DNA of 64,000 nucleotides from positions 62,001-126,000 of the forward strand of contig NZ_JAIVAM010000014.1 in NCBI RefSeq assembly GCF_020171845.1, written 5' to 3'. Position 1 is the stretch's first letter. Every line of letters starts with the position of its first letter. The notes beneath the pieces are model-generated. The model searched no databases. It had not been told where the DNA came from and saw only the letters and a list, made by a program, of their open reading frames with translations. The translations under genes and the position numbers were made by a program. Origin of the DNA: Cytobacillus kochii (lineage in GTDB: Bacteria; Bacillota; Bacilli; Bacillales; Cytobacillaceae). Below, piece after piece: positions 4,423 to 40,228 of the stretch.

Positions 4423-5841
4423 ATGTTTAAAAATAGTCTGAAGGATGGTAGAAGCGTATGGCTAAATGGAAGACAGGTGGATATTACACAAGATCCACAT
4501 TTTGTAGGAACACTTCAAACAATAGAATCTTTATTCTATATGCTAGAAAATGACCAGGAACAAAAAGAGATTGGTTATTTTGACAAAGAATATCAGTGTT
4601 GGATTCATAAATCGTTTCTTATTCCTCGTAGTAAAGATGATTTGATTGAAAGAAGAAAAACATTTCAATTATGGACAAAAGAGACTGATGGTATGATGAG
4701 CAGACTTTCGGATTACGCTCGTTCAAGATTAACAGGTTGGTATGCGAATCGCGAGTTTTACAGACAATATGACCAAGAATTCCCTGAAAAAATATCCTCC
4801 TATTTTCATAAAGCTAGAAAAGAAAACCGATTTATTTCCGTTGTACAAAGAGATCTACAAATTGACCGATCTATTAAGAGTATAGGGGACAAAGAGAAAT
4901 TAGGTTTATTGAGTATCACCAAAAAAACAGATGAAGGGGTGTTCGTTAGTGGTGCAAAAATGATTGGTACAGCTGCTCCTTATTCACATGACTTAATTAT
5001 TTACCCATTATCTACAATCAAAGAAGAAAATAAATCCTTGGCGCATATGTTGATTGTTGCTGCAGACTCTCCAGGTCTTCATATGGTTTGTAGAGAACCA
5101 TTCTCTGCTGATAAAGAAAAGGAAGAAGATTACCCACTTAGTTCTAAATTTGATGAGATGGATACAGTGCTTATTTTTGATAATGTTTTTGTTCCTTGGG
5201 AAAGAGTCTTATTACATGAAAATACGAAAGCAATAGCAGAAATTAAAGTCGATCTAATTTCTAATAGCCTAGCTTATCATCAATCAATTATTAGGTTATA
5301 TACAAAGCTTGACTTTGTTGCAGCTATTGCTAATGAGATAGCTGAGACAATAGGTGCTGAAGGTTTTCTACATGTACAGGAAAAGCTTGGTGAATTAATA
5401 ATTCAGTTAAGAACTATTTCAGCTATGATTATCGCTGCTGAGCAGAATGGAAAGTATTTGAATAATGTATACATACCAGAATTTGATTATATCCAAACAG
5501 CAAGAATATTGGGAACGAAATATTATCCGCGTGCTATTGAGATTATTCAATTAATTGGTTCAGGTGGATTTATTCAAATTCCATCATCAGTAAACGACTT
5601 TGACAGTTCAATAGGCACATTGTTACAAAAATATTTTCATGGAAAGAACACCTCTGCTTTAGAGAGAACAAAATTATTTAAATTGGCTTGGGACTTAATT
5701 GGTTCTCCTTTTGGTTCCCGTCACGAACTATATGAACGTTTTTATTCCGGAGATCCAATACTACAAACAGCTGATCAGTGGAAGAGATATGATAAAAAAC
5801 ATTGGAAGGAATATTTAGCTTCTTATCTAAATAGAGAATAA
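4423..5841 (+). CDS. HpaB-family FADH2-dependent aromatic hydroxylase
   Basis: The protein belongs to the 4-hydroxyphenylacetate 3-monooxygenase (HpaB) group, flavin-dependent enzymes with an acyl-CoA dehydrogenase-like fold that hydroxylate phenols using FADH2 from a separate reductase. The family opening DGRSVWLNGRQVDITQDPHF begins a few residues in, and the middle carries GAKMIGTAAPYSHD and DNVFVPWERVLL. The ATG at 4423 (472 aa) has GAAGGGAAAG upstream and fits the family N-terminus; an in-frame ATG at 4372 lacks a ribosome site. As first gene of the cluster it probably adds a hydroxyl to the AHBA-derived ring. No reductase partner is nearby, so a host flavin reductase is implied. Confidence 0.8.
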   Translation: MFKNSLKDGRSVWLNGRQVDITQDPHFVGTLQTIESLFYMLENDQEQKEIGYFDKEYQCWIHKSFLIPRSKDDLIERRKTFQLWTKETDGMMSRLSDYARSRLTGWYANREFYRQYDQEFPEKISSYFHKARKENRFISVVQRDLQIDRSIKSIGDKEKLGLLSITKKTDEGVFVSGAKMIGTAAPYSHDLIIYPLSTIKEENKSLAHMLIVAADSPGLHMVCREPFSADKEKEEDYPLSSKFDEMDTVLIFDNVFVPWERVLLHENTKAIAEIKVDLISNSLAYHQSIIRLYTKLDFVAAIANEIAETIGAEGFLHVQEKLGELIIQLRTISAMIIAAEQNGKYLNNVYIPEFDYIQTARILGTKYYPRAIEIIQLIGSGGFIQIPSSVNDFDSSIGTLLQKYFHGKNTSALERTKLFKLAWDLIGSPFGSRHELYERFYSGDPILQTADQWKRYDKKHWKEYLASYLNRE

Positions 5842-5957
5842 AATAATTAAATTTTATCAGAATTTTTTAAATATATAAAATGATAGATTTCCCTCATGCA
5901 AGCATCTCAAACTTTAAAGGCAAGATATTGTCAAATAAATATAAAGGAGGAAACCAT

Positions 5958-6857
5958 ATGGAGATATTATCACATCTAGATCAATTAGAGGCCGAAGCAA
6001 TTTACATTATTCGGGAGGTAGCTGCAGAGTGTGAAAACCCTGTAATGCTCTATTCGATTGGTAAAGATAGCTCTGTCATGTTGCACTTAGCAATGAAAGC
6101 TTTTTATCCGGATAAACCACCTTTTCCTTTTATGCATATAGATACTACATGGAAATTTAAAGAAATGATTAAATTTAGAGATAGAATTACTAGGGAATTA
6201 GGAATTGACATGATAGTTTATTCGAATCAAGAAGGGATTAAAAAAGGAATAAATCCCTTCGATCATGGTCCTAGTTATACTGATTTAATGAAAACTCAAG
6301 CTTTAATAAAAGGTTTGGACAAGTATGGTTTTACAGCAGCTTTTGGTGGAGGAAGACGTGATGAAGAAAAGTCTCGGGCAAAAGAAAGAGTATTTTCCTT
6401 TCGTAATAGTAAACATGCTTGGGATCCAAAAAATCAAAAACCTGAAATGTGGAAATTATATAATACTAGAGTAAATAAAGGTGAAGGCATTCGTATTTTC
6501 CCACTTTCTAATTGGACAGAAAAAGATATCTGGCAGTATATCAAACGAGAGAATATTGATATAGTTCCCTTATATTTTGCAAAAGAAAGACCCGTAATTT
6601 ATAGGGATGGCAATATCATAATGAAAGATGATGAACGACTGAAAATCCATCCATCTGAGAAAGTAATAATGAAGAATATAAGGTTTCGTACATTAGGGTG
6701 TTACCCCCTAACTGGTGCTATTGAGTCTAAAGCTAATACACTTGATGACATAATTAAAGAGACTCTTGGAGCAATTTCTTCAGAACGAACAACCAGAGTT
6801 ATTGATTACGAGGTTGTTGGGAGTATGGAAAGACGGAAGCGGGAGGGGTATTTCTAA
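5958..6857 (+). CDS. cysD: Sulfate adenylyltransferase small subunit
   Basis: CysD catalyses AMP transfer from ATP to sulfate, giving APS, in complex with the GTPase CysN. The PP-loop motif SIGKDSSV lies near residue 35, followed by [24 protein letters not shown] and the C-terminal [11 protein letters not shown]. The start at 5958 follows AAAGGAGG with ideal spacing and gives 299 residues, the usual length; an earlier in-frame ATG at 5880 lacks a ribosome site. It sits 2 bases before cysNC. Bacillus normally uses a single-chain Sat enzyme, so a CysDN pair at the head of a biosynthetic cluster suggests acquisition and a dedicated PAPS supply. Confidence 0.9.
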
Positions 6858-6859
6858 TA

Positions 6860-8692
6860 ATGAAGCGTTTGTTAAGGTTTATTACTTGTGGAAGTGTTGA
6901 TGATGGAAAATCTACTTTAATTGGACATATGCTTTATAAAGCAAAGCTATTATATACTGATGAAGAAAAAGCTCTAAGACTAGATAGTAAAGTTGGTAAT
7001 AATGCAGGGAAAATCGATTACTCACTACTTCTAGACGGTTTGATTGCCGAAAGAGAACAGGGCATTACAATTGATGTAGCGTATAGGTACTTTACTACTG
7101 AGAAAAGATCTTTTATTGTTGCAGATACTCCAGGTCATGAAGAATATACTCATAATATGGCAGTAGGGGCATCCTACGCTGATCTAGCTATCATACTTGT
7201 AGACGCTACAAAAGGTGTGGTTACTCAGACAAAACGTCACTTAAGAATATGTTCTCTAATGGGTATTGAAAATTTAGTATTAGTTGTGAATAAAATGGAT
7301 TTAATTGAATTTGACCAAAATAAATTTACAAAAATCACACAAGACTTTATGAAGGAAATATACAATTTTAATCTAGAAAATCTTCAAGCTATCCCTATTT
7401 CAGCTACTGAAGGGGATAACATTATACATAGATCTAAAAATACGCTATGGTATGATGGTCCATCTTTACTACAATACATAGAAACTGTGGATATTAAATT
7501 AGACTATCAACAAGATAACTTTATCATGCCTGTCCAGCGTGTTAGCAGACCAAATCATACTTTTCGCGGTTATCAAGGGCAAGTTGAAGCTGGCAATATT
7601 TCTTTAGGAGAAGAGGTTATTTCTCTACCTAATAATGAAAGAGCTAAGATAAAACATATTCTAGTGACTAATAAAGAAGAAAATTCAGCCTCTGTTGGCA
7701 ATCCTGTTACTATACAATTAGACCGTGAAGTTGATGTTTCTCGAGGAAGTGTCTTAACTACCTCTGAGAATCTTTATATATCTGATATGTTTACAGGTAC
7801 AATATTTTGGATGGATAGTAATAATTTCACTCCTAATTCGAGTTATCTAATTAAAGTCGGAACCAAAATTATCCCAGCAAAAATAACTTCAATAAAACAT
7901 AAAATTGATATAAATACCGGAAATAGATTACTAGTAAATGAAATCATGAAAAATGAATTAGTAGAATGTAATATATTATTGTCTGAGAAAATAGTATTTT
8001 ATTCTTTTAAAAAGAATAAATCCCTTGGTAGTTTTATATTAATAGATAGGTTAACAAATCTAACTTCAGCTTGCGGTGTAATTAGCCAATCTATAAATAA
8101 GTCCTCTAATGTTTACTGGGGCGATACTTTTATATCTCGAGAAACTAGAGCAAGTCAAAAAGGCCAAACCCCTTTAACGTTATGGTTTACAGGTTTATCT
8201 GGTTCTGGTAAAACCACACTTGCAAACGAGGTTGACAAACGTTTGGTAACTCTTGGCTATCATACTATGATATTAGATGGGGATAATATTAGGCATGGTC
8301 TAAGTAAAGATTTAGGTTTTTCAAGAACTGATAGAATTGAGAATATTCGTCGAATATCAGAAGTAGCTAATTTAATGAATGATTCAGGTTTAATCACGAT
8401 AATTGCTACCATATCTCCCTATGAAAATGACAGAGAAAATGCTAGGAAGATAATCGGAGAAGGTTTTATTGAAATTTATTTAAATACATCACTAGAAGAA
8501 TGTGAGAAAAGAGATGTAAAAGGACTTTATAAGAAAGCTAGAAATGGAAAAATTTCAAACTTTACAGGAATCTCTAGCCCTTATCAAGAACCGAAAAAGC
8601 CAGAAATTAAATTAGATACAAGTAAATATTCTATTGAAGAAGCTACTAATATTATTGTAAAAAAAATTATTAAATTCGAATTAAATCAATAA
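6860..8692 (+). CDS. cysNC: Sulfate adenylyltransferase large subunit fused to APS kinase
   Basis: This 610-residue protein is a NodQ-type fusion. The N-terminal GTPase CysN has the P-loop GSVDDGKSTL, switch DTPGHEEYTHNM and NKMD. The APS kinase CysC begins near residue 435 with a second P-loop GLSGSGKTT, LDGDNIRHGLSKDLGF and a C-terminal GISSPYQEPKKPEI. With CysD it makes APS and then PAPS, the sulfuryl donor of sulfotransferases. It abuts cysD in one transcription unit. No ordinary PAPS sulfotransferase is visible in the cluster, which leaves the use of the PAPS open. Confidence 0.9.
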   Translation: MKRLLRFITCGSVDDGKSTLIGHMLYKAKLLYTDEEKALRLDSKVGNNAGKIDYSLLLDGLIAEREQGITIDVAYRYFTTEKRSFIVADTPGHEEYTHNMAVGASYADLAIILVDATKGVVTQTKRHLRICSLMGIENLVLVVNKMDLIEFDQNKFTKITQDFMKEIYNFNLENLQAIPISATEGDNIIHRSKNTLWYDGPSLLQYIETVDIKLDYQQDNFIMPVQRVSRPNHTFRGYQGQVEAGNISLGEEVISLPNNERAKIKHILVTNKEENSASVGNPVTIQLDREVDVSRGSVLTTSENLYISDMFTGTIFWMDSNNFTPNSSYLIKVGTKIIPAKITSIKHKIDINTGNRLLVNEIMKNELVECNILLSEKIVFYSFKKNKSLGSFILIDRLTNLTSACGVISQSINKSSNVYWGDTFISRETRASQKGQTPLTLWFTGLSGSGKTTLANEVDKRLVTLGYHTMILDGDNIRHGLSKDLGFSRTDRIENIRRISEVANLMNDSGLITIIATISPYENDRENARKIIGEGFIEIYLNTSLEECEKRDVKGLYKKARNGKISNFTGISSPYQEPKKPEIKLDTSKYSIEEATNIIVKKIIKFELNQ

Positions 8693-8849
8693 TCGCTTTA
8701 TTAAGTATAAGGCTATTTAATCATGAAAGTACCAACATAGTAAGGGTCAGGTGATTATTTTATTTCTGAAAGGCAAAAAAATATGGTGTTTATTAATGTA
8801 TCACTTTAAGCGAATTATTTTCAAATTAATGATCGAAAGGAAATTTCAA

Positions 8850-9299
8850 ATGATACAATACGTAATTATCAATGGACCAAATTTAAATTTACTTGGTGAC
8901 AGAGAGCCAGGTGTTTATGGTAATAAAACCTTAAAGGAAATTGAAAAAATTATAAATTTTCATTTTCAGGCCGAGTGTAAAATTGATTTTTATCAATCAA
9001 ATCATGAAGGAGAAATAATAGATTTTTTACACATGACTTCAAACGTATACAATGGAATTGTTTTTAATCCTGGTGCCTTCATGTCATATAGTTATGCTAT
9101 TAGAGATGCAATTGCTTCAATTTCAATACCAGTAATTGAAGTACATATGAGTAATATTTTTAATAGGGATTCATTTAGGCAACAGTCAGTAATTGCTCCT
9201 GTAACCAAAGGTTTTATAAGTGGATTAGGAGAAAGAAGCTACATACTTGGTATAGAGTCATTGCTATTACAAAATAAGTTAGGAAGTAAAGTAGAATGA
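8850..9299 (+). CDS. Type II dehydroquinate dehydratase-like, likely aminodehydroquinate dehydratase (RifJ role)
   Basis: 149 residues, the standard length of type II dehydroquinase. NGPNLNLLGDREP...YG carries the catalytic Arg18 and Tyr23; QSNHEGE and EVHMSN (His99) follow. In AHBA pathways this enzyme dehydrates 5-deoxy-5-aminodehydroquinate. The start at 8850 follows GAAAGG; longer in-frame starts would add a non-family tail. Two substrate-pocket motifs deviate: the usual NPGAYTHTS is NPGAFMSYS (His replaced by Ser79) and FRHHS is FRQQS. The gene overlaps the ROK kinase by ATGA. Its setting among AHBA genes argues against a housekeeping aroQ. Confidence 0.85.
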   Translation: MIQYVIINGPNLNLLGDREPGVYGNKTLKEIEKIINFHFQAECKIDFYQSNHEGEIIDFLHMTSNVYNGIVFNPGAFMSYSYAIRDAIASISIPVIEVHMSNIFNRDSFRQQSVIAPVTKGFISGLGERSYILGIESLLLQNKLGSKVE

Positions 9300-10237
9300 T
9301 AGATATGATTTTAGATATAGGAGGAACAAGTATAAAAATTGTGTCTCTTACTTATGGAAAAAAAGAAATTTCTAATATTCGCTATACAGAAACCCCTTTT
9401 CCTAATACTAAGGATTTCTCAGAGGATATTTTTCAAATAAAAAAAAGTTTGACTTTATTCCTTAATGAGGAAATAAGAAGGTTAGTTATATGTTTTCCAG
9501 GCGTTTTACGAAATAACAAAATATTTAAATGGCCAAATAAGACTTACTGGGAAGGTAATAATTTTTATAATTTTGTAAAAATATTAAATCCAAAAGAATG
9601 GTTAGTATTTGATGATTGTACTCTGGGAGTACTATCAAATCTTTTGTTATATCCTAATAAACAAAATTCTTTGTTTATAAATGTAGGCTCAGGTATTGGG
9701 TGTGGTTTAATTATTAATGGTCAATTATTTGTAGGAGATAATGGGAACGCTGGTGAATTAGGACATATTACTGTTTTTCCAGAGTCAACTATAACTTGCC
9801 CATGTGGTAATAGAGGTTGCTTACAGCTTTTTTCATCAGGTAAAGGAATTCTTGAAAGGGCTAAGATGGTAGATAATTCACTAAGTGAATATAAACTTCT
9901 CCAGGAATGTCTTGGTAATAATATCGTAAAGAAAAAAATTAAGGAAGGGGCGGAACTTCTAGGACAATATATATCAAATATGATTAATTTTTTAGATGTG
10001 ACTACAATACATATTAACGGAGGAGTAACAAACATTAATGAATATAATGAAACATTTATAGATTCTTTATATAAACAAGAGAAAAAATACCTTGATAGAG
10101 AATTAACTATTAACATTAGACCCTATTTCAATGCTTCTTTAGTTGGGGGGGTAATTAAAATGTTAGGAAAAGAAAAACTAGAACAAGTGAGTAATATAAT
10201 TAATAATATAGAAAATAAAATGGAAAAGGTGGAGTGA
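9296..10237 (+). CDS. ROK-family sugar kinase, probable kanosamine 6-kinase (RifN role)
   Basis: The 313-residue protein starts with the ATP-binding LDIGGTSIK, contains GSGIGCGLIINGQ and GELGHITV, and has the ROK zinc motif CPCGNRGC near residue 165. In AHBA clusters a ROK kinase phosphorylates kanosamine (3-amino-3-deoxyglucose) to the 6-phosphate, which enters a transketolase step to supply the amino-tetrose. It is translationally coupled on both sides (ATGA and GTGA overlaps). Specificity is inferred from context. Confidence 0.82.
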   Translation: MIDMILDIGGTSIKIVSLTYGKKEISNIRYTETPFPNTKDFSEDIFQIKKSLTLFLNEEIRRLVICFPGVLRNNKIFKWPNKTYWEGNNFYNFVKILNPKEWLVFDDCTLGVLSNLLLYPNKQNSLFINVGSGIGCGLIINGQLFVGDNGNAGELGHITVFPESTITCPCGNRGCLQLFSSGKGILERAKMVDNSLSEYKLLQECLGNNIVKKKIKEGAELLGQYISNMINFLDVTTIHINGGVTNINEYNETFIDSLYKQEKKYLDRELTINIRPYFNASLVGGVIKMLGKEKLEQVSNIINNIENKMEKVE

Positions 10238-11328
10238 AATTGAGTATAGGAATAGGAATAATCGGTTTAGGGTGGATAAGTCAAAAGATTCACCTTCCAT
10301 TTTTCACAAATAATAGTGACATTGATTTTGTAGGTGTTTTTGATATTGATGATTTTAAGGTGAATGAGGTTAAAAAAAACTTTAAAATAAATCAAGTATT
10401 TAATACTTATGATAGTTTAATAAAGTGTAAAAAAATTAATATTGTTGTAATCGCCACACCTAATCACCTCCATCAAACTCAAATTAATGAGGCAATTATA
10501 AATAATAAATATGTTTTTTCCGAAAAACCATTATGTATAAATGGTTTAGAGTTAGAAAATCTAAAGGCGTTGGAATCGCATTTAGGAAATCTTTTCCCTT
10601 TGCTCCCTAGTAGATATACTCAAGAAGTAAATAAGGTAAAGGAATTAATAGGAACTATTGGAGATATCTATAAAGTTAAAGGAACTTGGAATAGAGGGAA
10701 TGGAATTCCTACTTCAAGTTGGTTCACTAACAAAAATAAGTCAGGTGGAGGAGTACTCATAGACCTAGGATCCCACATTATTGATGTAATATTTTATCTA
10801 TTAGATTTCCCCGATATTTTAAATTCAAATTCTTTTCTTTCGAACAACTTTTTAAATCAAAATGAAAAAAAAGCAAATTGGCACGAGAGCAACACAGATA
10901 AAAAGAATACACGGATAAGTGATTCTGTTGAAGATAATGCTCAAGTTTTTTTAAAAAGTAGAGATATGTCTATTTATATAGATTTGAGTTGGGCGAGTGT
11001 TAGAAAGTATGATGAAAGCACATTTGAAATTCACGGTACTAAAGGTTCTATTATAATGAAAACATTATTTGGATTTAGTAGAAATAGGTACTTAGACAAC
11101 TCTACAATTGTATACGAAGTAGATCAAAAAGAAGAGATAGTCATTCAAATGAAAAATAATAATCCCTCTTCTTATTATTTTGAAATGTTAGAAAATAACT
11201 TAGCTAAAGTAAAAAGAAAAGAATCTAATATTGATTATGTTAAGAATGCATTCAAAACTATTGATATAATAGATCGTTTGTATACAAACCAAAACTTAGG
11301 AATTAATGAGGAAGTGTATTATGTTTAA
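10234..11328 (+). CDS. Gfo/Idh/MocA oxidoreductase (RifL- or NtdC-like role)
   Basis: An NAD(P)-binding Rossmann N-terminus (IGIIGLGWISQKIHLPFF) is followed by VVIATPNHLHQ, FSEKPLC, and a C-terminal domain with GGGVLIDLGSHIIDV, all typical of this family; 364 residues. In AHBA synthesis a sugar 3-dehydrogenase makes the 3-keto sugar that is transaminated to kanosamine; RifL and the Bacillus NtdC are precedents. Whether it acts on UDP-glucose or glucose 6-phosphate cannot be read from sequence. The GTG start overlaps the kinase stop. Confidence 0.82.
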   Translation: MKLSIGIGIIGLGWISQKIHLPFFTNNSDIDFVGVFDIDDFKVNEVKKNFKINQVFNTYDSLIKCKKINIVVIATPNHLHQTQINEAIINNKYVFSEKPLCINGLELENLKALESHLGNLFPLLPSRYTQEVNKVKELIGTIGDIYKVKGTWNRGNGIPTSSWFTNKNKSGGGVLIDLGSHIIDVIFYLLDFPDILNSNSFLSNNFLNQNEKKANWHESNTDKKNTRISDSVEDNAQVFLKSRDMSIYIDLSWASVRKYDESTFEIHGTKGSIIMKTLFGFSRNRYLDNSTIVYEVDQKEEIVIQMKNNNPSSYYFEMLENNLAKVKRKESNIDYVKNAFKTIDIIDRLYTNQNLGINEEVYYV

Positions 11329-12415
11329 AATCAACATTCAAACAATCTATAAAAACTATCCATTTTATTTAGGACATGGAATAACTGAAAATTTCCATAG
11401 CATATTATCTGAGAATAATATAGATAAAAGTGGAAGAGCAATTTTAATAATTACGGATGATGTGGTTGCTCCATTATACCTTGTTAAATTAAAGAAAATT
11501 TTACAAACAACGGAGGACAAGGTTTATATAAAAGTTTTACGTTCTGGAGAAACTTCAAAAAGTTTATCAAATTATCAAGAGATAATTAATTTTTGCATAG
11601 AACACAGACTGGATCGTAATTCATTATTAATTGGTTTGGGAGGTGGAGTTATTGGTGATATAACTGGATTTGTTGCTTCCACATATATGAGAGGAATTGA
11701 ATTTTTGTTAATACCTACCACCATTCTATCCCACGATAGTTGTATAGGTGGAAAGAATGGTCTGAACTTTGGTAAATCGAAAAATATATGCGGTACAATT
11801 TATCAACCTGAGTTAATAATCTTCGATACAAAGTATATAGAAACTCTATCTAAAAGGCAGCTTCTTAGTGGTATGGTGGAAATAATACTACATGGGGTGA
11901 TAAAAGACCCGATATTCTTACAATGGTTAGATGATAACCAAAAAAAACTAATGAGTAAAGATCAAAAAACCATGCAAGAAGCGATTAAAATATCTGCGGA
12001 AATAAAAGCAGATATAATACGTCAGGATACCCTTGAGCATGGTAAAAGAAACTTATTAAATTTTGGTCACACCTTTGGTCATGCATTAGAAAGTATTACT
12101 GATTTTAAACAATATACCCATGGAGAAGCAGTAGGAGTTGGGATGTTGTTAGCTACACTTTATTCTTATTTTAGTGGATTTTGTTCTTTTGATTTATACA
12201 TTAAACTTAGAAATTTATTAAATAAATTTGAGGTTCCTATAACTATCGATAAAAAAATCAATAGTCTTGATATTTTAAATTCTATGTACCTAGATAAAAA
12301 AATTAAAAAAAATAAATTAAGATTAATCTTAATCAGAAATATTGGTGAAGTATTTATAAAGGATGATATTAAGGAAGAACATATACTAAAGGCAATGGAC
12401 TATTTAAGAGAATAA
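11321..12415 (+). CDS. 3-dehydroquinate synthase-like, likely aminodehydroquinate synthase (RifG role)
   Basis: The AroB-type fold is clear: GLGGGVIGDITGF near residue 107, PTTILSHDSCIGGKNGLN, KNICGTIYQP, and zinc ligands in VEIIL (Glu187), GHTFGHALE and HGEAVGVGM. Ordinary AroB has GGKTG; GGKNG here fits my recollection of AHBA-type RifG. The usual EVIK lysine is Leu190. The start at 11321 follows GAGGAAGTG, overlaps the preceding gene, and gives 364 residues. It cyclises aminoDAHP to aminodehydroquinate. No aminoDAHP synthase is present in the window, so the substrate must come from elsewhere. Confidence 0.85.
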   Translation: MFKINIQTIYKNYPFYLGHGITENFHSILSENNIDKSGRAILIITDDVVAPLYLVKLKKILQTTEDKVYIKVLRSGETSKSLSNYQEIINFCIEHRLDRNSLLIGLGGGVIGDITGFVASTYMRGIEFLLIPTTILSHDSCIGGKNGLNFGKSKNICGTIYQPELIIFDTKYIETLSKRQLLSGMVEIILHGVIKDPIFLQWLDDNQKKLMSKDQKTMQEAIKISAEIKADIIRQDTLEHGKRNLLNFGHTFGHALESITDFKQYTHGEAVGVGMLLATLYSYFSGFCSFDLYIKLRNLLNKFEVPITIDKKINSLDILNSMYLDKKIKKNKLRLILIRNIGEVFIKDDIKEEHILKAMDYLRE

Positions 12416-12655: not shown

Positions 12656-12755
12656 TAGTTTCTCCTTTCTAATGTTTTAAAATTTATATATTATATCCAT
12701 TTTAATAATTTCAATACATTCAGTCAAATATCAATTATCGGAAGGAATGATTAAT

Positions 12756-30872: not shown

Positions 30873-31130
30873 TTGAATAAAGAAAACTTATACACACAGT
30901 TAAAATCTCTTCTTATTGCAATGTTAGAATTAGATGAAGAAAAAGCAAAAGAAATTAATGAAAAAACTAAATTAATTGATAATTTAGGTATGAGTTCTGT
31001 AGAAGCTCTAGAGTTTCTGGTTCTTATTGAAAAAGAATACTCTATTATAATTGAAGATGAGGATTTGGACTCAGATTTATTTAAGGATATAAAAACTCTT
31101 GGTGAGTATTTGGAAAAAAGGTTATTTTAA
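30873..31130 (+). CDS. Acyl carrier protein of the type II PKS
   Basis: 85 residues; the phosphopantetheine serine is in LGMSSVEALEFL near residue 35, with the acidic helix II-III expected of ACPs. TTG 30873 lies 7 bases after GGAGGA. It sits between ketoreductase and dehydratase, so it probably carries the growing chain, whereas the ACP at 14002 carries AHBA. Swapped or shared roles cannot be ruled out from sequence. Confidence 0.85.
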   Translation: MNKENLYTQLKSLLIAMLELDEEKAKEINEKTKLIDNLGMSSVEALEFLVLIEKEYSIIIEDEDLDSDLFKDIKTLGEYLEKRLF

Positions 31131-31565
31131 ATGCAAGAAGTATTTATAAATGAAATTAAAGAGTTAATCCCTCATAGACACCCTACTTTATTTATTGAGT
31201 ATGTACAGGTTTTTCCTGAGAAAAAAACAGCAATTTCTAGATGTAATCCTAAAGTTAAAGAAGTGATAAAAGGTTATAAAAGAGAACAAATATCAATATT
31301 TTACTTTATTGAAGGGATTTTCCAAACTGCAGGAGTATTATTTAATATATTATATGGTTTTGAAGAGAAGCTTAAGAAGAAAAAATTTCTTTCAAGGCTA
31401 GATGAAGTTAGAGTTTTAGGAGAACTATGCAATCAAAAAGAATTAATTTTTAAGGTTGAAGTTAGAAATTCAAATAGATTTAATGATAAATTTTATGGTG
31501 AAATTCTGTCGAATAATAAAATTGTACTAAGTTGTAATGTAACTTCTAGCATACAAATAAATTAG
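31131..31565 (+). CDS. FabZ-like 3-hydroxyacyl-ACP dehydratase
   Basis: A 144-residue hotdog-fold protein. The dehydratase His lies in LIPHRHPTLFIEYV near residue 13, and the acidic residue in FYFIEGIFQTAGVL near residue 60, in the positions of FabZ. It removes water from 3-hydroxyacyl-ACP to give enoyl chains; no enoyl reductase is present nearby, so a polyene would result. Begins immediately after the ACP stop. Confidence 0.75.
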   Translation: MQEVFINEIKELIPHRHPTLFIEYVQVFPEKKTAISRCNPKVKEVIKGYKREQISIFYFIEGIFQTAGVLFNILYGFEEKLKKKKFLSRLDEVRVLGELCNQKELIFKVEVRNSNRFNDKFYGEILSNNKIVLSCNVTSSIQIN

Positions 31566-32916: not shown

Positions 32917-33873
32917 GTGGGTGAATTTGTGTCGTCAATTATTAAGGTAAATAATCTATATCATGAATATACAATTAAAAACAATGGGAAAAAAGAAAAA
33001 AAAGTTGCATTAAAGGGGATTAATTTTGAAGTAAAACAAGGAGAAGTGTTTGGATTACTAGGACCTAATGGTGCTGGTAAAACAACTACAATAAAAATCC
33101 TTACTACTTTATTAATACCTAAGAATGGAAATGTAACTTTATTAGATAAAGATATTTTAAAAAGTCCAGGTTATATAAGGAAGAATATAAATTTTATGTT
33201 AGGAGGAGAAAGAGGTATTTATAATCGCCTCACACCTATTGAATACCTCAAATACTTTTCATTATTATATAAAATAAAAATACCAGATAATAAACTCATG
33301 GAATTACTAGAATTGGTAGGTTTAGAGAAAAATGCTAATGAAGAAACTATAGGGTTTTCAAAAGGAATGAAGCAGCGCCTTCATATTGCAAGAGTGTTAA
33401 TAAATAATCCTAAAATAGTATTTCTTGATGAACCAACAATTGGTTTAGATCCAGTAATTTCTGAGGAAGTGAGACTAATAATCAGCAGGCTTTCTAAGAA
33501 AAACATAACTGTTATTTTAACAACACATTATATGCAAGAAGCAGACGATTTATGTGATCGAATTGCAATTATAGATGAAGGAGAAATAAAAATTATTGGC
33601 ACCCCAACCTTTATTAAAAGTACTCATTCAGATGTAAAATTTTACGAAGTGACTTGTAGTAATCTTGATGAAGTTGGTATTTTTAGCGTAGAAGAAATAC
33701 GGAATCTGGCAATCAAGACTATTGAAGGAGGGTTAAAGCTTATAAGATTTGAATATCCAGTAACTTCAACTATTAAAGAGGTTCAAAAAGAAATAAACCA
33801 ATTCTGCAGTATTATTAAAATAAATATTAGGGATGTTACTTTAGAGGATGCGTATATTAAACTTGTGAGGTGA
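32917..33873 (+). CDS. ABC transporter ATP-binding protein (DrrA-like)
   Basis: 318 residues: Walker A GPNGAGKTTT, signature FSKGMKQRLHIARVL, Walker B IVFLDEPTIGLDP, H-loop TTHYMQEADD, and a C-terminal extension typical of drug-export ATPases (DrrA/NatA type). GTG 32917 is used; GTG 32929 is also possible. Two ABC-2 permeases follow in an operon, so the product is probably pumped out as part of self-resistance. Confidence 0.9.
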   Translation: MGEFVSSIIKVNNLYHEYTIKNNGKKEKKVALKGINFEVKQGEVFGLLGPNGAGKTTTIKILTTLLIPKNGNVTLLDKDILKSPGYIRKNINFMLGGERGIYNRLTPIEYLKYFSLLYKIKIPDNKLMELLELVGLEKNANEETIGFSKGMKQRLHIARVLINNPKIVFLDEPTIGLDPVISEEVRLIISRLSKKNITVILTTHYMQEADDLCDRIAIIDEGEIKIIGTPTFIKSTHSDVKFYEVTCSNLDEVGIFSVEEIRNLAIKTIEGGLKLIRFEYPVTSTIKEVQKEINQFCSIIKINIRDVTLEDAYIKLVR

Positions 33874-33878
33874 TAAAA

Positions 33879-34643
33879 ATGATTGCTCTTAGATTATTAT
33901 TTTTTAATTTAATTAAATTCACAGATTTAAGAAATAAGTTTTATCAATGGATAATATTTTGTCAGCCATTAATCTTTCTTACAATCTTGTATTTTATGTT
34001 AAAAGTAAATCCAGCAATAAATATAGATAAGTATATATTCGCAGTAGGTATAATAAGTGCATGGAGTTTTATATTATATGCTTCTGGGACAGCTTTGATT
34101 TCTGAAAAATGGGGGGGGACTTTCGAATTAATTCTAGGATCAAATACTTCTTTATTCAGGATTGTGTTAACAAAATCTGTATGTAATTCATTAATCGGAC
34201 TATTAAACATTTGTTTGACAATACTCTATGCCCAGATAATATATGGATTTGAAATACATACTAGTAATCTTATACTTTCAATTTCTTCCTTAATTGTATT
34301 AATATATTCATTAATTAGTTTAGGTATGGTTTTAGCTGTTTTATGTAGTTTATTTAATAATGTATTTGAGTACCAAAATTTAATGGTTTTTCCTTTCTTA
34401 ATTTTAAGTGGTCTATTTATTCCAGTAAATGACTTACCTTTAATATTCCAACCAATCTCTTATGTTATTCCAATGACTTGGTCAATAAAAAGCCTCTATG
34501 ACTCTCTTATTGGAATTGAGTTCTCCTACTTTTATTTATTAGGAGGAATACTTATAAGTAGTTTTTATTTTGTATTGACTTATATATTTATCTCTAAAAT
34601 AGAGTTAATTTTTAGAAAAACCAATAAGATAGGGGTATTTTAA
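33879..34643 (+). CDS. ABC-2 type permease (first subunit)
   Basis: 254 residues with six hydrophobic helices and the ABC-2 pattern FPFLILSGLFIPVNDLP near the end. ATG 33879 lies after GAGGTGAT; the preceding ATPase stop overlaps an upstream GTG. It should pair with the second permease and the ATPase to export the cluster product. Confidence 0.85.
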   Translation: MIALRLLFFNLIKFTDLRNKFYQWIIFCQPLIFLTILYFMLKVNPAINIDKYIFAVGIISAWSFILYASGTALISEKWGGTFELILGSNTSLFRIVLTKSVCNSLIGLLNICLTILYAQIIYGFEIHTSNLILSISSLIVLIYSLISLGMVLAVLCSLFNNVFEYQNLMVFPFLILSGLFIPVNDLPLIFQPISYVIPMTWSIKSLYDSLIGIEFSYFYLLGGILISSFYFVLTYIFISKIELIFRKTNKIGVF

Positions 34644-34644
34644 T

Positions 34645-35421
34645 ATGAGTACGAATTTTTTTACTCTATCTTATAAAGCCTTATATTCATATCAGAATGT
34701 AAAAACGTACCTTACTTTTCGAGTTCTCGAACCACTATTTCATTATTTATTCTTTGCTTCTATGGCGTATTATATTATGGGGAGTGAATACTTAAATTTT
34801 ATTGTTATTGGTAATGTTATTTATATGATGGTACATACATTGATTATTAATATAACAGTAATGCTTAGGTTTGATAAAATATATGGAACCTTACCATACA
34901 ATATTGGTTCCCCGACATCTACATTGGCTATTATGTTTAAAAGGTTACTAATACCCATTATTGATACAATACTAACTTTTATAATAAGTTCTTTAACTGT
35001 GTTCTTTATTTTTAATATAAAAATTGAATTTGAAATGATATTTCCTTTATTGTTGTTGATTATAACTATAATTTTTTCATTATGTGGAATTGGAATAATT
35101 ATTAGTGGCTTAGGAGTCGTTTTTAAGAATGTAAATCTTTTTCTAAATTTATCATTAGGATTGTTCCAGATTTTTTGTGGAGTGAATTTTCCACTCTCAG
35201 TTTTACCTAATGGAATAGAAACCATTGCTAGGTGTATTCCCTTTACAAATGGCTTACTCGGGATAAGAGAAGTGATTACAAATAGTGCAGAAATGAACAC
35301 AGTACTACCTTATATATATTTTGAAATTTCAATAGGTGTAGTTACCTTTATAATATCTATTTTCGTAATCAAAACATTAGAAATTTTATCCAGAAAAAAA
35401 GGGGTTCTGTTCTTTGATTGA
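34645..35421 (+). CDS. ABC-2 type permease (second subunit)
   Basis: 258 residues, six predicted membrane segments, with the family stretch FQIFCGVNFPLSVLPNGIETIARCIPFTNGL. It follows the first permease after one base. A heterodimeric channel with the protein at 33879 is likely. Confidence 0.85.
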   Translation: MSTNFFTLSYKALYSYQNVKTYLTFRVLEPLFHYLFFASMAYYIMGSEYLNFIVIGNVIYMMVHTLIINITVMLRFDKIYGTLPYNIGSPTSTLAIMFKRLLIPIIDTILTFIISSLTVFFIFNIKIEFEMIFPLLLLIITIIFSLCGIGIIISGLGVVFKNVNLFLNLSLGLFQIFCGVNFPLSVLPNGIETIARCIPFTNGLLGIREVITNSAEMNTVLPYIYFEISIGVVTFIISIFVIKTLEILSRKKGVLFFD

Positions 35422-35469: not shown

Positions 35470-35931
35470 ATGACAAAGTCTTTGAAATTACCATTAGAAA
35501 AATTCGAAAAAAGGGAACTTAGAAGAAATAAAATAAAATTAAGCCAGATTCCTGAAATATCTGAGATGCATTTATCAGAAATTCTAAAAACTTCAGTAAA
35601 ACGCTCTAAAAAAATTATTGCTCATGCAAAAATTCAACAAATTCCTTCTATTGGACCTAAACTCGCATCGAATATTATTAAGCTAGGTTTTTATTCCTTA
35701 GAAGATATAAAAGACCAAGATGGGGCACACCTTACAGATCTATTGGAGAAAAGATGTGGGTGTTGGATAGATCCTTGTGTAGAAGATCAATTAAGGTTAG
35801 TTATAAATTATGCTAATAATGGTGATTTAGGTAAGAAATGGTGGGAATTTACAAAAGAAAGGAAAATATATAGGGAGAAAAATGGATACCCTACTGATAG
35901 ACCAACTAAAGCTTGTGAAAAATTGTTTTAA
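35470..35931 (+). CDS. Cdd1/McrB-type helix-hairpin-helix protein, putative mitomycin-type resistance
   Basis: 153 residues with a helix-hairpin-helix region (IQQIPSIGPKLASNIIKLGFYSLEDIKDQDGAHL) and a conserved C-terminal block (RCGCWIDPCVEDQLRLVINYA...KKWWEFTKERKIYREKNGYP). This matches the Pathogenicity-locus (Cdd1) family; as I recall, homologues in many genomes are labelled mitomycin resistance protein McrB, although the mechanism is not established. The HhH motif suggests DNA binding. Its presence directly after the exporter fits protection against a DNA-alkylating product. Confidence 0.7.
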   Translation: MTKSLKLPLEKFEKRELRRNKIKLSQIPEISEMHLSEILKTSVKRSKKIIAHAKIQQIPSIGPKLASNIIKLGFYSLEDIKDQDGAHLTDLLEKRCGCWIDPCVEDQLRLVINYANNGDLGKKWWEFTKERKIYREKNGYPTDRPTKACEKLF

Positions 35932-35963: not shown

Positions 35964-36998
35964 TTGAATATTTTTCATAAAGAGTGGAATTCAAATAGGA
36001 TAATGAATTTGACGAATTTATATAAAGTTTCTGAATTAATGTTTGTTTCAATAAAGATTGACCTATTTTCAAAATTACATGAACCTAAAACAAGTAGCGA
36101 GTTATCAAAAGAGCTTACATTTGATAATGATTTTTTGGAGATAATACTAAAAGCTCTTGTGGCCATTAATCTGTTACAAATTGATAAAAATAATAGATAC
36201 CATGTCACTCCTAGTGCTTTTCCATATTTAAATAAGGAATCAAAAAACTCGATCAATAGTCTAATTGAACTTGAAAGAACAATGAGAAATAAAAGAAATT
36301 TAAATGAAGTAATCCTAGATTTATTAACTGGAGAATCACCTAAAAGAATTGATTTTCCTGAGAAAAATATTTATACCAATGCAATGAGTTCTGGAACTTA
36401 TTATCCAGCTCTTAAAATGGGCAGAGTACTATTGAAATATTTCGATAAGAATAGACCTATTAATTTTCTGGATTTAGGTTGCGGTCCTGGCGATTATGCA
36501 CTAACTTTTAAGAAACTTTTCAGTAATTTAGTAGGGACACTGATTGATAGAGAAGAAATTATTAATATTACAAGGCAGCGGCTAATGGAAAAGAATGTAC
36601 TGAATGATTTTAAACTTATTCATAATGATTTTATGAGTGATCCAATTTCAGGAAAATATGAATTAGTACTTCTTTCTAATATTTGCCATTTCTATTCTTT
36701 AGAAGAAATATCACATCTATTAAATAAGATACCATTCAATCCAAAAGAAGAAAGTTTTGTGATAATTCATGACTTTTTTTTAGATGAAGAATTAAATGAA
36801 GAAACATTTTTACCTATCTTTGCATCGTTAGATTGGATGGGAAACCACTCCAACAGGTTTAATTACACACTTAATGAAATAGGAAGTTGGCTAGAATCCT
36901 TAGGATGGATGGTAGTTGAACAAGAAGCCATTAAGGGATTACCTACTTCTTATATTCTGATAAAAAAAGAAAAAAAAGGAGAAGGAGAGATTGAATAA
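35964..36998 (+). CDS. SAM-dependent O/N-methyltransferase with dimerisation domain
   Basis: 344 residues. An N-terminal winged-helix dimerisation domain (VSELMFVSIKIDLFSKLHEPKTSSELSKEL) is followed by an intact SAM site FLDLGCGPGDYALTF near residue 170 and VIIHDFFLDE. Typical of antibiotic O-methyltransferases (compare MmcR or MitM roles in mitomycin). TTG start after AAAGGAGGTG. It is the full-length counterpart of the motif-less protein at 22596. Confidence 0.82.
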   Translation: MNIFHKEWNSNRIMNLTNLYKVSELMFVSIKIDLFSKLHEPKTSSELSKELTFDNDFLEIILKALVAINLLQIDKNNRYHVTPSAFPYLNKESKNSINSLIELERTMRNKRNLNEVILDLLTGESPKRIDFPEKNIYTNAMSSGTYYPALKMGRVLLKYFDKNRPINFLDLGCGPGDYALTFKKLFSNLVGTLIDREEIINITRQRLMEKNVLNDFKLIHNDFMSDPISGKYELVLLSNICHFYSLEEISHLLNKIPFNPKEESFVIIHDFFLDEELNEETFLPIFASLDWMGNHSNRFNYTLNEIGSWLESLGWMVVEQEAIKGLPTSYILIKKEKKGEGEIE

Positions 36999-37767
36999 AA
37001 TATTATATCCTTGTGATATCTGTAACAATGAAGAATTTATATTATTCAAGGAAAAAAAAGGTTTTTTTGGGGATGTTACATCAATTGTTACATGCTCAAA
37101 TTGTTCCCTAACATTTTTAAATCCTAGAGTAAATAAAACCATTGAGACACTTTACGAACATAGAAAATTCAAACCGCTCCAAGGTAAAAATAAGAACTCT
37201 AGATTAAACCTTTTCGCTTTTGGAATGAGTTTATTAAAGAGTCATGTTACAAAAGGTACAATATTAGATGTTGCAATGAATGACGGGACCTTCTTGAATA
37301 CACTTTCATCAAGTGATTGGAATAGATATGGAATTGAAGATTCAAAGTTAGCATATGAATATTGTTCAGATAAATTCGACTTTAAATCTTTTCATACAAA
37401 TGTGCATGAATGTAATTTTCCTAATAACTTCTTTGATGTTATTTCACTATGGGATGTTTTAAATCGTTCCCCTTTACCAAGCCGAAATATTACAAGTATG
37501 AACAGACTTTTAAAAGAAGATGGATATTTTCTGGTTTCTTTTGAAGCTCCAACTAGAGTATTATTTAGAGGGGTAAATCATTATTTCACTCCTTTTACAT
37601 TCAATAAGCTTCTTACCAGAGAAGGTTATAAAAGTGTAGAGTTTTACTATATTGAAGATACTGGAGATGAGATATATCATAAACAAAAAGTAAATCTGAA
37701 TGAAAATAATCTCAAAGAAAGTAAAATCGGACACTACATTGCTATCTTCCAAAAAATCAAAAATTAG
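36991..37767 (+). CDS. Class I methyltransferase with N-terminal zinc-finger-like motif
   Basis: 258 residues. An N-terminal CDICNN...CSNCSLTFLNPR probably binds zinc, as in sugar C-methyltransferase-like proteins. A SAM domain follows with a weakened motif I (ILDVAMNDGTFL) and FDVISLWDVLNRSP, LKEDGYFLVS. Overlaps the previous gene by 8 bases, TTG start. The acceptor is unknown; the amino sugar or ring oxygen are candidates. Confidence 0.7.
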   Translation: MNKILYPCDICNNEEFILFKEKKGFFGDVTSIVTCSNCSLTFLNPRVNKTIETLYEHRKFKPLQGKNKNSRLNLFAFGMSLLKSHVTKGTILDVAMNDGTFLNTLSSSDWNRYGIEDSKLAYEYCSDKFDFKSFHTNVHECNFPNNFFDVISLWDVLNRSPLPSRNITSMNRLLKEDGYFLVSFEAPTRVLFRGVNHYFTPFTFNKLLTREGYKSVEFYYIEDTGDEIYHKQKVNLNENNLKESKIGHYIAIFQKIKN

Positions 37768-37933: not shown

Positions 37934-38326
37934 ATGAAATTCTCAGGACAAATCCTAGCGGTTAAAAATATGAAAGAAATGATATCATTTTATTGCGATT
38001 TTTTAAATTTTGAAGTAATCACAGCAGTGCCTAATAAAGATAATCCCGAATTCACTATTTTACAAAACGAGAATGTTCAAATTATGTTAGAAACTTTAGA
38101 AAGTCTATCTAAAAACAATCCTAATATGAATAATTATTTCAAACTAACTGAAAAATTCGGAGTTGGATCTATTAACTATATTAAAACAACAGATATTGAG
38201 GATTTATATAAAACTGTCAAAGAAAACTCAGTTCCAATTCTAAAAGAATTACACGAGACATGGTACGGAGCCAAAGAATTTATTATCGAGGATCCTGAAG
38301 GTTATCTAATAATGTTTTCTCAATAA
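37934..38326 (+). CDS. VOC-fold protein, Mrd-like drug-binding candidate
   Basis: 130 residues in two beta-alpha-beta-beta-beta units: FSGQILAVKNMKEMISFYCDFLNF at the start and FIIEDPEGYLIMFSQ at the end, the glyoxalase/bleomycin-resistance pattern. The mitomycin-binding resistance protein Mrd of Streptomyces lavendulae has the same fold and size. Location at the cluster end supports sequestration of the product. AGGAGG-like GAGGTG site; TATAAT lies upstream near 37902. Confidence 0.75.
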   Translation: MKFSGQILAVKNMKEMISFYCDFLNFEVITAVPNKDNPEFTILQNENVQIMLETLESLSKNNPNMNNYFKLTEKFGVGSINYIKTTDIEDLYKTVKENSVPILKELHETWYGAKEFIIEDPEGYLIMFSQ

Positions 38327-38420
38327 TTACTTTAAACTATAATTAATAAATTTGTTTTTTAGTATAAAATTTTCCAAAAAGGACTTTTCTTTAAAAATAA
38401 TTTGAACGTGAGGGGATATA

Positions 38421-39194
38421 GTGTGGAATAACAATATTCCGGTAATTAAAAAACTAAGCATTGCTGATTATCATTGTATAATGGTTAGTTGTTATAAACA
38501 AGATATGGACAGGGGATACATAATAATTTTACATAAACTACTTGAAAGGAAAGAATACGAGTTACAAACTGCATTTCTATTAGCACAACAAGGTTTTAAG
38601 TGTATTTTAGTGGATTTATATGGACATGGTGAAGATGGAAATAAAATACCTCTTAAATTGGATGAGTTAGTGTATTTATCTGTAGAAAAAATCAGTGAAA
38701 TTATTAACAAAATATCAAATAAAGGTTCAACAATAAGTTTAATCGGTGTTTCATTAGGAGCATTAGTATGTTTGTGCCTAGCTTCATATAACAGTAAAGT
38801 TAGCAATATAGTTTCCTTATTAGGTAGTGGGAGAATAAAAGAGTTATCAAAAAGAAATTCTTTTAACAAATTTCAAAAAGGATTTGGAGAGCAGTACTTT
38901 CAAAAAACAGGTTTATTATGTTCGGAATTTTTCACTAAATATGACCCTTATGATAACCCTGAATTTTTACAATCTTCTAGACTCTTAATGATAAATGGAA
39001 ATATGGATTTTACAATACCAATTAGTTTGGTAAGAGATACTGTTTCTAGCTTAAAAACTTATTCAAATAATAATAGTAAACAGCTTAATTTTAAATACCT
39101 TGAATTACCTTATAGGGGGCATCAGTGTACCCCTGATATTTATGAACAAAGTGTGAGATGGTTAATAGATAATACAAATTTTATCAATTCATAA
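38421..39194 (+). CDS. Alpha/beta hydrolase
   Basis: 257 residues with nucleophile elbow GVSLGALVCL near residue 112, an acid in NGNMDFTIP, and the catalytic His in YRGHQCTPD. Resembles acetyl-ester or dienelactone-type hydrolases. In the cluster it could release the acyl chain, remove a protecting ester or degrade the drug. GTG start with TGAGGGG upstream. Confidence 0.75.
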   Translation: MWNNNIPVIKKLSIADYHCIMVSCYKQDMDRGYIIILHKLLERKEYELQTAFLLAQQGFKCILVDLYGHGEDGNKIPLKLDELVYLSVEKISEIINKISNKGSTISLIGVSLGALVCLCLASYNSKVSNIVSLLGSGRIKELSKRNSFNKFQKGFGEQYFQKTGLLCSEFFTKYDPYDNPEFLQSSRLLMINGNMDFTIPISLVRDTVSSLKTYSNNNSKQLNFKYLELPYRGHQCTPDIYEQSVRWLIDNTNFINS

Positions 39195-39877
39195 GAGTGG
39201 TATATTAGAACAAATGGATGTATTTTCAGGTATCAACAAGAACAAATTAATTAGGTTTAATTGGTATAAAATATCATAGCCCAAAAACAGTGTGAATTTG
39301 AAGGTTCAAATTATTTAGAGATATACTCAAACAAAACGTTACAGGACGCTTAATCCTAATATGGTTTGACATGGAGCTTCGGCGGAGTTGACTCCCCTGC
39401 TAAGGGGAAAGGTTTTAAAAAACTTGACTATGCCAATTGTGGTTATCATGCCTACGGCTCCATATCAAGCCGTGAAAGAAAGGGTAAAGGAATTTCGAAT
39501 GACTCAAGGGATTCATCATGACAAACACTAATAGTGCAGAATCGGAGTTTATTTTCTTCATACGGGCTTGTGACCAATCATATGAGCTTATCCGGCCTCC
39601 GCTTCATGGATACGTTGAACGAAGGAATTGGAGGATTTCCAATCGGTGAGACATGGGAGGGTTAGCGCCCGTAGGCTCTCTTTGAAGATGTATAAGCACA
39701 GTTAAATTAACAAAATATACTAATTTTGTGGTTAGAATAGTATTTGATACGTTAGAAAATGCAAAAAATAAATCTCTGTCCATTTCCAAGGTGTATTTAC
39801 TAATTGCGTGTAAATAAAATTTTAAGAATTAGGGAGTATTCGGAAGAAAATTAAACTTTATTGAGGGAGGTAATATA
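39195..39877. other. 680 bp without intact genes; higher-GC remnant near 39350-39690
   Basis: The segment around 39350-39690 has a higher GC content than the cluster and contains a broken reading frame (for example KGKVLKNL...KERVKEF) with several stops. It looks like foreign, decayed coding DNA, perhaps from a mobile element, inserted between the hydrolase and second VOC gene. I could not identify the family. Confidence 0.35.
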
Positions 39878-40228
39878 ATGAAAACGAAATTAACTCACGT
39901 AAGAGTAAATGTGAAAAATTTGAGAGAATCATTAGACTGGTATAAAAATAAGTTGGGGTTCATAGTTGCTGGGACCTGGCCACCTGAAGAACCCAACTAT
40001 GCTCATTTTGAATCATTAGACGGTGCTGTTTTTGCTATTATGGAAGACATGAATTATCCTTCTCCAGGAAGATTTAATTTCGATGTTGAGAATGTGGAAA
40101 TTTTATGGAACAAGATCAAGGATGAAGTAATTGTAACTGAAGAACTTTTTTCAACACCCTGGGGTTCAAAGAAATTTACAATATGTGATTTAGATGGGAA
40201 TGAGTTAGGCTTTGTACAAGAAAAATAA
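39878..40228 (+). CDS. Second VOC-fold protein (glyoxalase/bleomycin-resistance type)
   Basis: 116 residues: LTHVRVNVKNLRESLDWYKNKLGFIVAGTWPPEEPNYAHF at the start and CDLDGNELGFVQEK at the end. The sheet residues H and E typical of metal-binding VOC enzymes are partly kept. Strong GAGGGAGG ribosome site. It may be a second drug-binding or detoxifying protein of the cluster, though the decayed stretch before it leaves membership open. Confidence 0.7.
   Translation: MKTKLTHVRVNVKNLRESLDWYKNKLGFIVAGTWPPEEPNYAHFESLDGAVFAIMEDMNYPSPGRFNFDVENVEILWNKIKDEVIVTEELFSTPWGSKKFTICDLDGNELGFVQEK

Follow-up and report, generated by a model that had tools for sequence, protein, structure and literature searches.

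Gene content of the locus

The window, that is, the whole 64,000-nucleotide stretch of DNA analysed here, comes from Cytobacillus kochii (contig NZ_JAIVAM010000014.1, positions 62,001 to 126,000). It contains a cluster of 36 genes, all on the forward strand, which form one block between window positions 4372 and 40228 (Table 1). All 36 frames are open and their spacing is mostly short. Judged from its genes, this cluster probably represents a deep branch, outside the actinobacteria, of the mitomycin-type 3-amino-5-hydroxybenzoate (AHBA)-glucosamine pathway. An initial annotation had described a mitomycin-like cluster at this place, and every enzyme family that it named is present in the block, according to Pfam, NCBIfam and PDB matches of the window proteins. 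Several genes were found beyond its list: cysD, cysNC, two Phosphodiest genes of the alkaline phosphatase (AP) superfamily, a gene for the phosphopantetheinyl transferase ACPS, a BtrH-like match below cut-off, and a set for a ketosynthase (KS), chain length factor (CLF), ketoreductase (KR), acyl carrier protein (ACP) and dehydratase (DH). A flavin enzyme of the luciferase-like monooxygenase (LLM) type, a three-gene ATP-binding cassette (ABC) transporter, a Cdd1 protein, an alpha/beta hydrolase and two vicinal oxygen chelate (VOC) genes complete these additions. The HpaB frame starts at 4372; the start given earlier, 4423, falls on the second Met of this frame.

Table 1. Features of the cluster and of its right-hand flank, with the basis of each assignment (identities are to homologs in other clusters unless stated otherwise).
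Feature	Window positions	Strand	Basis
HpaB-type flavin hydroxylase, candidate aromatic-ring hydroxylation	4372..5841	+	Pfam HpaB_N/HpaB; NCBIfam HpaB-1 under its cut-off (E 1e-96)
CysD, sulfate adenylyltransferase small subunit	5880..6857	+	above NCBIfam cut-off
CysNC fusion, ATP sulfurylase large subunit/adenosine 5'-phosphosulfate (APS) kinase (makes 3'-phosphoadenosine 5'-phosphosulfate, PAPS)	6860..8692	+	above NCBIfam cut-off; homologs in six actinobacterial clusters
Type II dehydroquinase, RifJ/MmcF-like	8751..9299	+	Pfam; 36-40% identity
ROK kinase, RifN-like	9296..10237	+	Pfam; 24-32% to homologs in G568, G613, G058 stretches
GFO/IDH oxidoreductase, RifL/MitG-like	10234..11328	+	Pfam; 24-30%
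AroB-type (amino)dehydroquinate synthase, RifG-like	11306..12415	+	TIGR01357 aroB 342 bits, cut-off 305
Weak BtrH-like protein, candidate acyltransferase	12747..13679	+	Pfam BtrH_N 8.5e-6, below cut-off; DarH 9e-4
ACP1, MmcB-like carrier protein	13993..14262	+	45-50% identity to MmcB-type ACPs of 9 clusters
Family 2 glycosyltransferase (GT2), MitB-like	14255..15193	+	tree
AMP-ligase, MitE-like	15169..16599	+	tree
HAD phosphatase, RifM-like	16596..17249	+	Pfam; 27-37%
ACPS phosphopantetheinyl transferase	17249..17608	+	Pfam 5e-13
PIG-L deacetylase, MitC analogue	17622..18377	+	Pfam
AP-superfamily enzyme AP1	18361..19764	+	Pfam Phosphodiest; 36% to homologs in G547, G727, G619, G568
B12-binding radical S-adenosylmethionine (SAM) enzyme, MmcD-like	19768..21474	+	Pfam; 41-44% to 9 cluster homologs
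Radical SAM enzyme, MitD-like (rSAM2)	21479..22609	+	38-40% to 10 cluster homologs
Methyltransferase-type gene for a stand-alone protein related to the C-terminal domain of the MitE type	22596..23477	+	domain profile
AHBA-synthase-like aminotransferase, RifK/MitA-like	23497..24663	+	best PDB match AHBA synthase 1b9h, E 6e-81; 39% identity to RifK
AP-superfamily enzyme AP2, MmcA-like	24679..26166	+	Pfam; 25-36%
O-carbamoyltransferase, MmcS-like	26190..27830	+	Pfam; 45-46% to those of four Streptomyces reference clusters
Ketosynthase KS	27842..29062	+	Pfam; Cys in TACASG
CLF-like KS partner without the TACASG Cys	29055..30113	+	Pfam partial; sequence
Short-chain dehydrogenase/reductase (SDR), candidate KR of the polyketide set or MitF counterpart	30080..30853	+	tree
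ACP2	30858..31130	+	Pfam
FabZ-like dehydratase (DH)	31131..31565	+	NCBIfam fabZ 5e-10, below cut-off; no Pfam match
LLM flavin-dependent oxidoreductase	31607..32602	+	Pfam; closest NCBIfam model (under cut-off) alkanesulfonate monooxygenase
ABC exporter, ATPase and two permeases	32917..35421	+	Pfam
Cdd1 helix-hairpin-helix protein, candidate self-protection	35470..35931	+	Pfam 7e-27
Two SAM methyltransferases (from 35964 and 36991)	35964..37767	+	Pfam; first remotely MmcR-like, 1.5e-5
VOC protein, candidate binding/resistance	37934..38326	+	Pfam; 27% homolog in G058 cluster
Alpha/beta hydrolase	38421..39194	+	Pfam
Second VOC protein	39878..40228	+	Pfam
Right-hand copy of rpsI 3' end, att-like repeat	47906..47990	+	85 bp, 93% identity to left copy

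Reference clusters

The mitomycin cluster family (Streptomyces lavendulae type) is represented here by the clusters of two Streptomyces genomes, G547 and G727 (genomes and loci are cited by G and L numbers). They were taken as the reference because a MmcR homolog lies beside their carbamoyltransferase and because the gene order of G547 is mit-like. The MmcR fragment of PDB 3GWZ matches G727 and G547 at 79-80% over 121 amino acids. Its matches within the G568 and G619 stretches are at 54%; G074 and G075 have matches of 64% and 58%, which lie ~26 and ~15 kb away from their MitD-like genes. The order in G547 is AHBA synthase, GT2, PIG-L, radical SAM, AMP-ligase, SDR and RifL-type genes, with AP, ACP, AP, B12-radical SAM, MtrA-like and RifJ-type genes running divergently. 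The letters mitA-G and mmcA-F are assumed to follow this order, and those of the AP, B12-radical SAM, RifJ- and RifL-type genes are presumptive. Of the strong Streptomyces clusters, six were analysed over ~60 kb and a further one over 13 kb; the stretches of G844 and G869 are of 4 kb at most. In the 60-kb stretch of G547, 19 of the 50 open reading frames (ORFs) called match 16 different cluster genes (tblastn, E<=1e-4), a likeness of gene sets beyond what chance would give.

Placement of the core enzymes

The GT2 joins the GT2s of the other clusters with a support of 99/96, away from 12 host paralogs (two host rows dropped), and its PDB matches are other GT2 enzymes. The AMP-ligase joins ten MitE-type ligases (100/97), away from 23 host paralogs, in a tree from which five host rows of nonribosomal peptide synthetase (NRPS) type and G848 were dropped. 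The ligase of Hahella ganghwensis falls with an NRPS domain of the window's host, and the ACP of Hahella is 38% identical to ACP1. The initial annotation had named kinship of the GT2, ligase and ACP with unrelated pathways as the result that would speak against it; no such kinship was found, the first two being placed by tree and ACP1 by identity alone. A profile of the MitE C-terminal domain, run among the 36 cluster proteins, scores the stand-alone protein 22596-23477 at 4.9e-15, with a DW-THGG stretch common to both. The methyltransferase at 35964 fits this profile equally well (6.3e-15); the DW-THGG stretch is that of the 22596-23477 protein.

The radical SAM enzymes point in the same direction. 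The MitD-like enzyme stands with its family at 100/100 against a weakly matching group of Streptomyces. In the tree of the B12-radical SAM enzyme, the window groups with the cluster of a gammaproteobacterial metagenome-assembled genome (MAG OFTM54, L059/L123; 97/100), and a concatenate of five proteins also places the window as sister to this cluster (98/100). The reading as a mitomycin-type cluster follows from the grouping of the GT2 and the AMP-ligase with the MitB and MitE types and from the identities of ACP1, the radical SAM enzymes and the carbamoyltransferase. The MitD-type and MmcD-type enzymes, the carbamoyltransferase and the PAPS genes lend it added support. Homologs of the carbamoyltransferase at 45-46% occur in four of the nine actinobacterial clusters of mitomycin type, compared with 42-43% identity to the weak Streptomyces group. 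AP1 could be aligned with the other cluster AP proteins; for AP2, no PDB relative was found.

By sequence comparison, the genes of the AHBA set (RifG, J, K, L, M and N types) are all represented. The RifG-like protein is 23-26% identical to the copies in four Streptomyces reference stretches. The RifM-like phosphatase matches the NCBIfam model "AHBA synthesis associated protein" with an E of 3e-34 and 118 bits, under the 247-bit cut-off.

Distribution

Relatives of the AHBA synthase were collected with an alignment of the window enzyme and RifK, used to scan a collection in which 84,980 species have one genome each. The best 80 of the 147 relatives are all 38-42% identical, and no Bacillota record appears among the titles of these best 80 loci (the window's own genome was possibly omitted). 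A GT2 homolog (1e-8) accompanies four of the 80: L052 Hahella ganghwensis, L059 of the gammaproteobacterial MAG, L077 Saccharopolyspora rosea and L078 Actinosynnema sp. In the last three, homologs of the two radical SAM enzymes are present as well, that of the B12 enzyme at 42-43%. The Hahella genome gave no MitD-like match. In the other 76 loci, neither the GT2 nor the two radical SAM genes were found (1e-8, flanks of 10 kb at most and often less). Single other cluster genes were seen at the same threshold, for instance in L021 (carbamoyltransferase) and L016 (CysD).

An alignment search with the MitD-like enzyme matched 13 of 392 sampled Streptomyces genomes, nine strongly (571-606 bits) and four weakly (222-243 bits), three of the 47 genomes to which 50 of the 80 AHBA loci belong, and, among 398 sampled Bacillota genomes, only that of the window. 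The statement of the initial annotation that no such cluster was known from Bacillus agrees with this single Bacillota match, with the titles of the best 80 AHBA loci and with the literature, where no title or abstract on a mitomycin-type cluster in Bacillus was found (most subscription journals lie outside the search). Within the genus, the AHBA synthase matched two of 36 genomes at 1e-70, its own and G002 (37-38%). This congener was rejected as a second carrier, as the 4.1 kb around its match contains no other kind of cluster gene.

Among 72,556 plasmids, the AHBA synthase has one match (39.5% identity, E<=1e-70) and the GT2 matches 35 records, the 30 listed being all at 23-35% identity. Two of these GT2 matches were discarded as relatives: H1 has no AHBA or mitomycin-type gene set in its surrounding annotation, and the region of H13 is unrelated. 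A third match, H4, lies in an unannotated region. A second Streptomyces cluster type, the weak group (L119, L120, L121 and L122, of G825, G837, G848 and G611), contains AHBA-type genes, a carbamoyltransferase, an ACP and a B12-radical SAM gene. Its MitD-like enzyme is at 30-31%, PIG-L was checked in three members, no PAPS genes lie in the stretch read, and G611 adds a KS and a GT2.

PAPS supply

CysD/CysN-type genes are present in six of the nine actinobacterial clusters of mitomycin type (G547, G727, G619, G568, G613 and G651); for the remaining three (L077, L078 and G636), the stretch analysed is of 21 kb at most. The window CysD is 45-47% identical to CysD of G547, G619 and G568, and 36-37% to that of G613 and G651. 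The gammaproteobacterial cluster encodes an ATP-sulfurylase/APS-kinase fusion and a sulfotransferase. The sulfurylase part of this fusion belongs to another family, and its APS-kinase domain is 46% identical to that of the window. Two different PAPS supplies in one cluster family suggest that the pathway needs PAPS. In azinomycin-type aziridines, sulfation is reported to precede displacement of the sulfate by a neighbouring amine (excerpt of PMC9570651, citing Kurosawa et al. 2022), and by analogy a sulfate-based aziridine closure may operate in the window pathway. Hahella has a sulfotransferase related (35%) to that of the gammaproteobacterial cluster; with the sulfotransferases of these two proteobacterial loci as queries, no counterpart was found in the window. 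The proteins at L134 15148-15789 (no Pfam match) and L123 16250-16933, from two phyla, are alike by eye and adjoin PAPS genes.

Polyketide, export and protection genes

The ketosynthase matches the AmcF model (4e-73) and ACP2 the AmcB model (4e-8), both below cut-off. These models belong to the cispentacin/highly reducing type II polyketide synthases (PKS), from which the window differs by the lack of a second adenylating enzyme like AmcH (excerpt of PMC10698177). The predicted structure of the BtrH-like protein is uninformative (mean pLDDT 31). In the G651 cluster, a 765-amino-acid ketosynthase-containing protein adjoins the MmcB-type ACP (L134 17159-19456).

Cdd1 proteins are also found in the G651 and G058 clusters; Cdd1 was sought in other clusters only by tblastn with the window protein (1e-6), which missed these two copies too. 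VOC proteins are shared by the window, G547 and G058, and the VOC protein at 37934 has one weak match. Both kinds of protein may protect the host.

Genomic island

The cluster is best read as sitting on a decayed integrated island of ~49 kb. Copies of the rpsI 3' end, 49.3 kb apart, flank it. The left copy, at C14:60611-60695 (locus L190), falls beyond the window, and the whole rpsI ORF is present there. The rpsI 3' end of the host agrees with that of B. subtilis at 66 of 66 bases, which points to a host of Bacillus type. Tyrosine integrase pieces with broken frames follow both copies, one piece above the Pfam cut-off and two just below it. The G+C content is 26-33% in the cluster, against 33.5-39% right of 48 kb.

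Some other features were noted in the neighbourhood. A patch of 45% G+C (42000-44000), without Rfam or tandem-repeat match, lies in a region of 30% G+C. Inside the island, a protein-kinase-like gene (44551-45492) resembles PD-T4-6 defence models. Outside it, a BlaR1-type/transpeptidase gene is found with a beta-lactamase gene (60012-62807). One further G547 ORF matches a beta-lactamase gene outside the cluster (tblastn); the beta-lactamase at 60012-62807 shares 54% identity with one of the proteins called from G547.

Discussion

Compared with the mitomycin family (G547/G727), the window shares the AHBA set, the ACP-AMP-ligase-GT2 triad, the MitD/MmcD-type radical SAM enzymes, AP enzymes, the carbamoyltransferase and the PAPS genes. 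It differs by its PIG-L protein, which does not group with the MitC type, by the MitE C-terminal domain as a separate gene, and by two AP genes where the reference has four. It has no match for the P450, berberine bridge enzyme (BBE), MtrA-like and MmcR-type genes and adds HpaB, ACPS, KS-CLF-KR-ACP-DH, BtrH-like, ABC and Cdd1 genes. The gammaproteobacterial cluster has the AP-B12rSAM-rSAM2 genes in the same order as the window, along with MitE, MmcB and MitB types and Cdd1 and VOC genes. It differs from the window by the sulfotransferase, the ATP-sulfurylase/APS-kinase fusion of the other family and, by eye, an ORF like the synthase of 3-deoxy-D-arabino-heptulosonate 7-phosphate (DAHP). No carbamoyltransferase or KS match was found in the 40 kb read. 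With rifamycin and other ansamycins, the RifG, J, K, L, M and N subset is common, the AHBA synthase being 39% identical to RifK.

A number of observations weigh against a mitomycin-type assignment. A quick tree leaves the AHBA synthase out of a clade with a support of 98, in which proteobacterial and actinobacterial enzymes of mitomycin and ansamycin type are mixed, and its nearest rows by path are from Acidobacteria and Chloroflexi. The GT2 clade includes the GT2 of weak-group G611, and an approximately unbiased (AU) test of the clade without G611 neither favours nor rejects this exclusion (p-AU 0.28). The window branches are long in the GT2, AMP-ligase and concatenate trees, which limits the exact order. 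A PIG-L-type deacetylase is present, as the initial annotation stated, but it is not placed as a MitC ortholog: it groups with the two other PIG-L proteins of the host (100/97 split, long branches). The SDR is drawn as sister to the MitF type (95/81), yet a host SDR is closer to it, both in path length and in identity (46%), in a tree where one of 29 host loci gave no row. Pfam scans of the cluster recognised neither a DAHP synthase nor a sulfotransferase. The carbamoyltransferase was not seen in G613, G651, L077, L078, G636 or the gammaproteobacterial stretch. The P450, BBE oxidases, MtrA-like protein and MmcR homolog of G547 have no window match at 1e-4, nor do its ORFs resembling, by eye, aldehyde dehydrogenase and F420-type LLM enzymes.

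A pathway can be proposed from the observed homology, phylogenetic placement and conserved gene content, with functions of MitB, MitC, MitD, MitE, MitF and MmcB as given in excerpts of PMC8621148 and PMC9570651. The aminoshikimate-type genes would make AHBA, which the MitE-like ligase would load on the MmcB-like ACP1, activated by the ACPS of the cluster. The MitB-like GT2 would attach N-acetylglucosamine, followed by deacetylation by PIG-L, and the MitD-like and MmcD-like enzymes would form the sugar-aryl skeleton. A carbamate would be added by the carbamoyltransferase, and HpaB and the methyltransferases would decorate the ring. CysD/CysNC would provide PAPS, a sulfate ester possibly being the leaving group for an aziridine or another ring closure. 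The KS-CLF-KR-ACP2-DH set is predicted to make a short reduced acyl chain, which the BtrH-like protein may transfer to an amine. The ABC transporter would export the product, from which the VOC and Cdd1 proteins may protect the host. This product may be a DNA alkylator of a mitosane- or FR900482-like kind, as initially annotated. FR900482, likened here by description only, is a mitomycin-family DNA cross-linker on a shared pathway (excerpt of PMC9570651).

In its most specific form, the proposal is that a Bacillota species makes an acylated mitosane-like alkylator from a mitomycin-type core, a type II PKS and a BtrH-like acyltransferase. Sulfation, fed across the cluster family with PAPS from either CysD/CysN-type genes or a synthase whose ATP-sulfurylase part is unrelated, would then be a core mitosane step that sets up aziridine closure by sulfate elimination. 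We put this forward tentatively, as a possibility on the doubtful side. It is likewise conceivable, without being probable, that the early mitomycin steps alone yield an AHBA-glucosamine conjugate, with no mitosane or aziridine, whose core receives an acyl group from the type II PKS/BtrH pair as well as a carbamate. The common genes are mainly those of early ACP-bound steps, the late genes of the reference are absent and the PKS and BtrH-like genes are extra. The weak group (G825, G837, G848 and G611) also shows that AHBA genes, carbamoyltransferase (42-43%), PIG-L, ACP and radical SAM genes can be combined differently. A simple conjugate fits less well with the retention of both radical SAM enzymes, the AP enzymes and the PAPS genes, all common to mitomycin-type clusters, and in mitomycin MitD acts after glycosylation and deacetylation (excerpt of PMC9570651).

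The contiguous KS, CLF, KR, ACP2 and DH genes (27842-31565) could instead build an AHBA-primed polyketide, ansamycin-like or aryl-polyene-like, that the sugar genes only decorate. This is unlikely: Pfam scans found no type I PKS in the cluster, and the sole AMP-ligase groups with the MitE type and adjoins ACP1 and the GT2, not the KS. In addition, none of the 76 other AHBA loci has the GT2 or either radical SAM gene in the stretches examined. That common enzyme families are neighbours by chance, or that the cluster is decayed and without product, might be thought from the AT-rich island and the broken integrase frames at its ends. With 36 open frames on one strand, mostly at short spacing, and with trees that place the key enzymes specifically, this explanation is very improbable.

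Mitomycins are described from Streptomyces and other actinobacteria in the parts of the literature surveyed. The mitomycin-type cluster of this Bacillota and its gammaproteobacterial sister suggest a wider spread of the AHBA-glucosamine pathway. The comparison of three phyla separates a core, made of the ACP, ligase, GT2, two radical SAM enzymes, AP enzymes and PAPS supply, from clade-specific tailoring. For the steps that form the ring and the aziridine, called not well elucidated (excerpt of PMC9570651), this core set names candidates.

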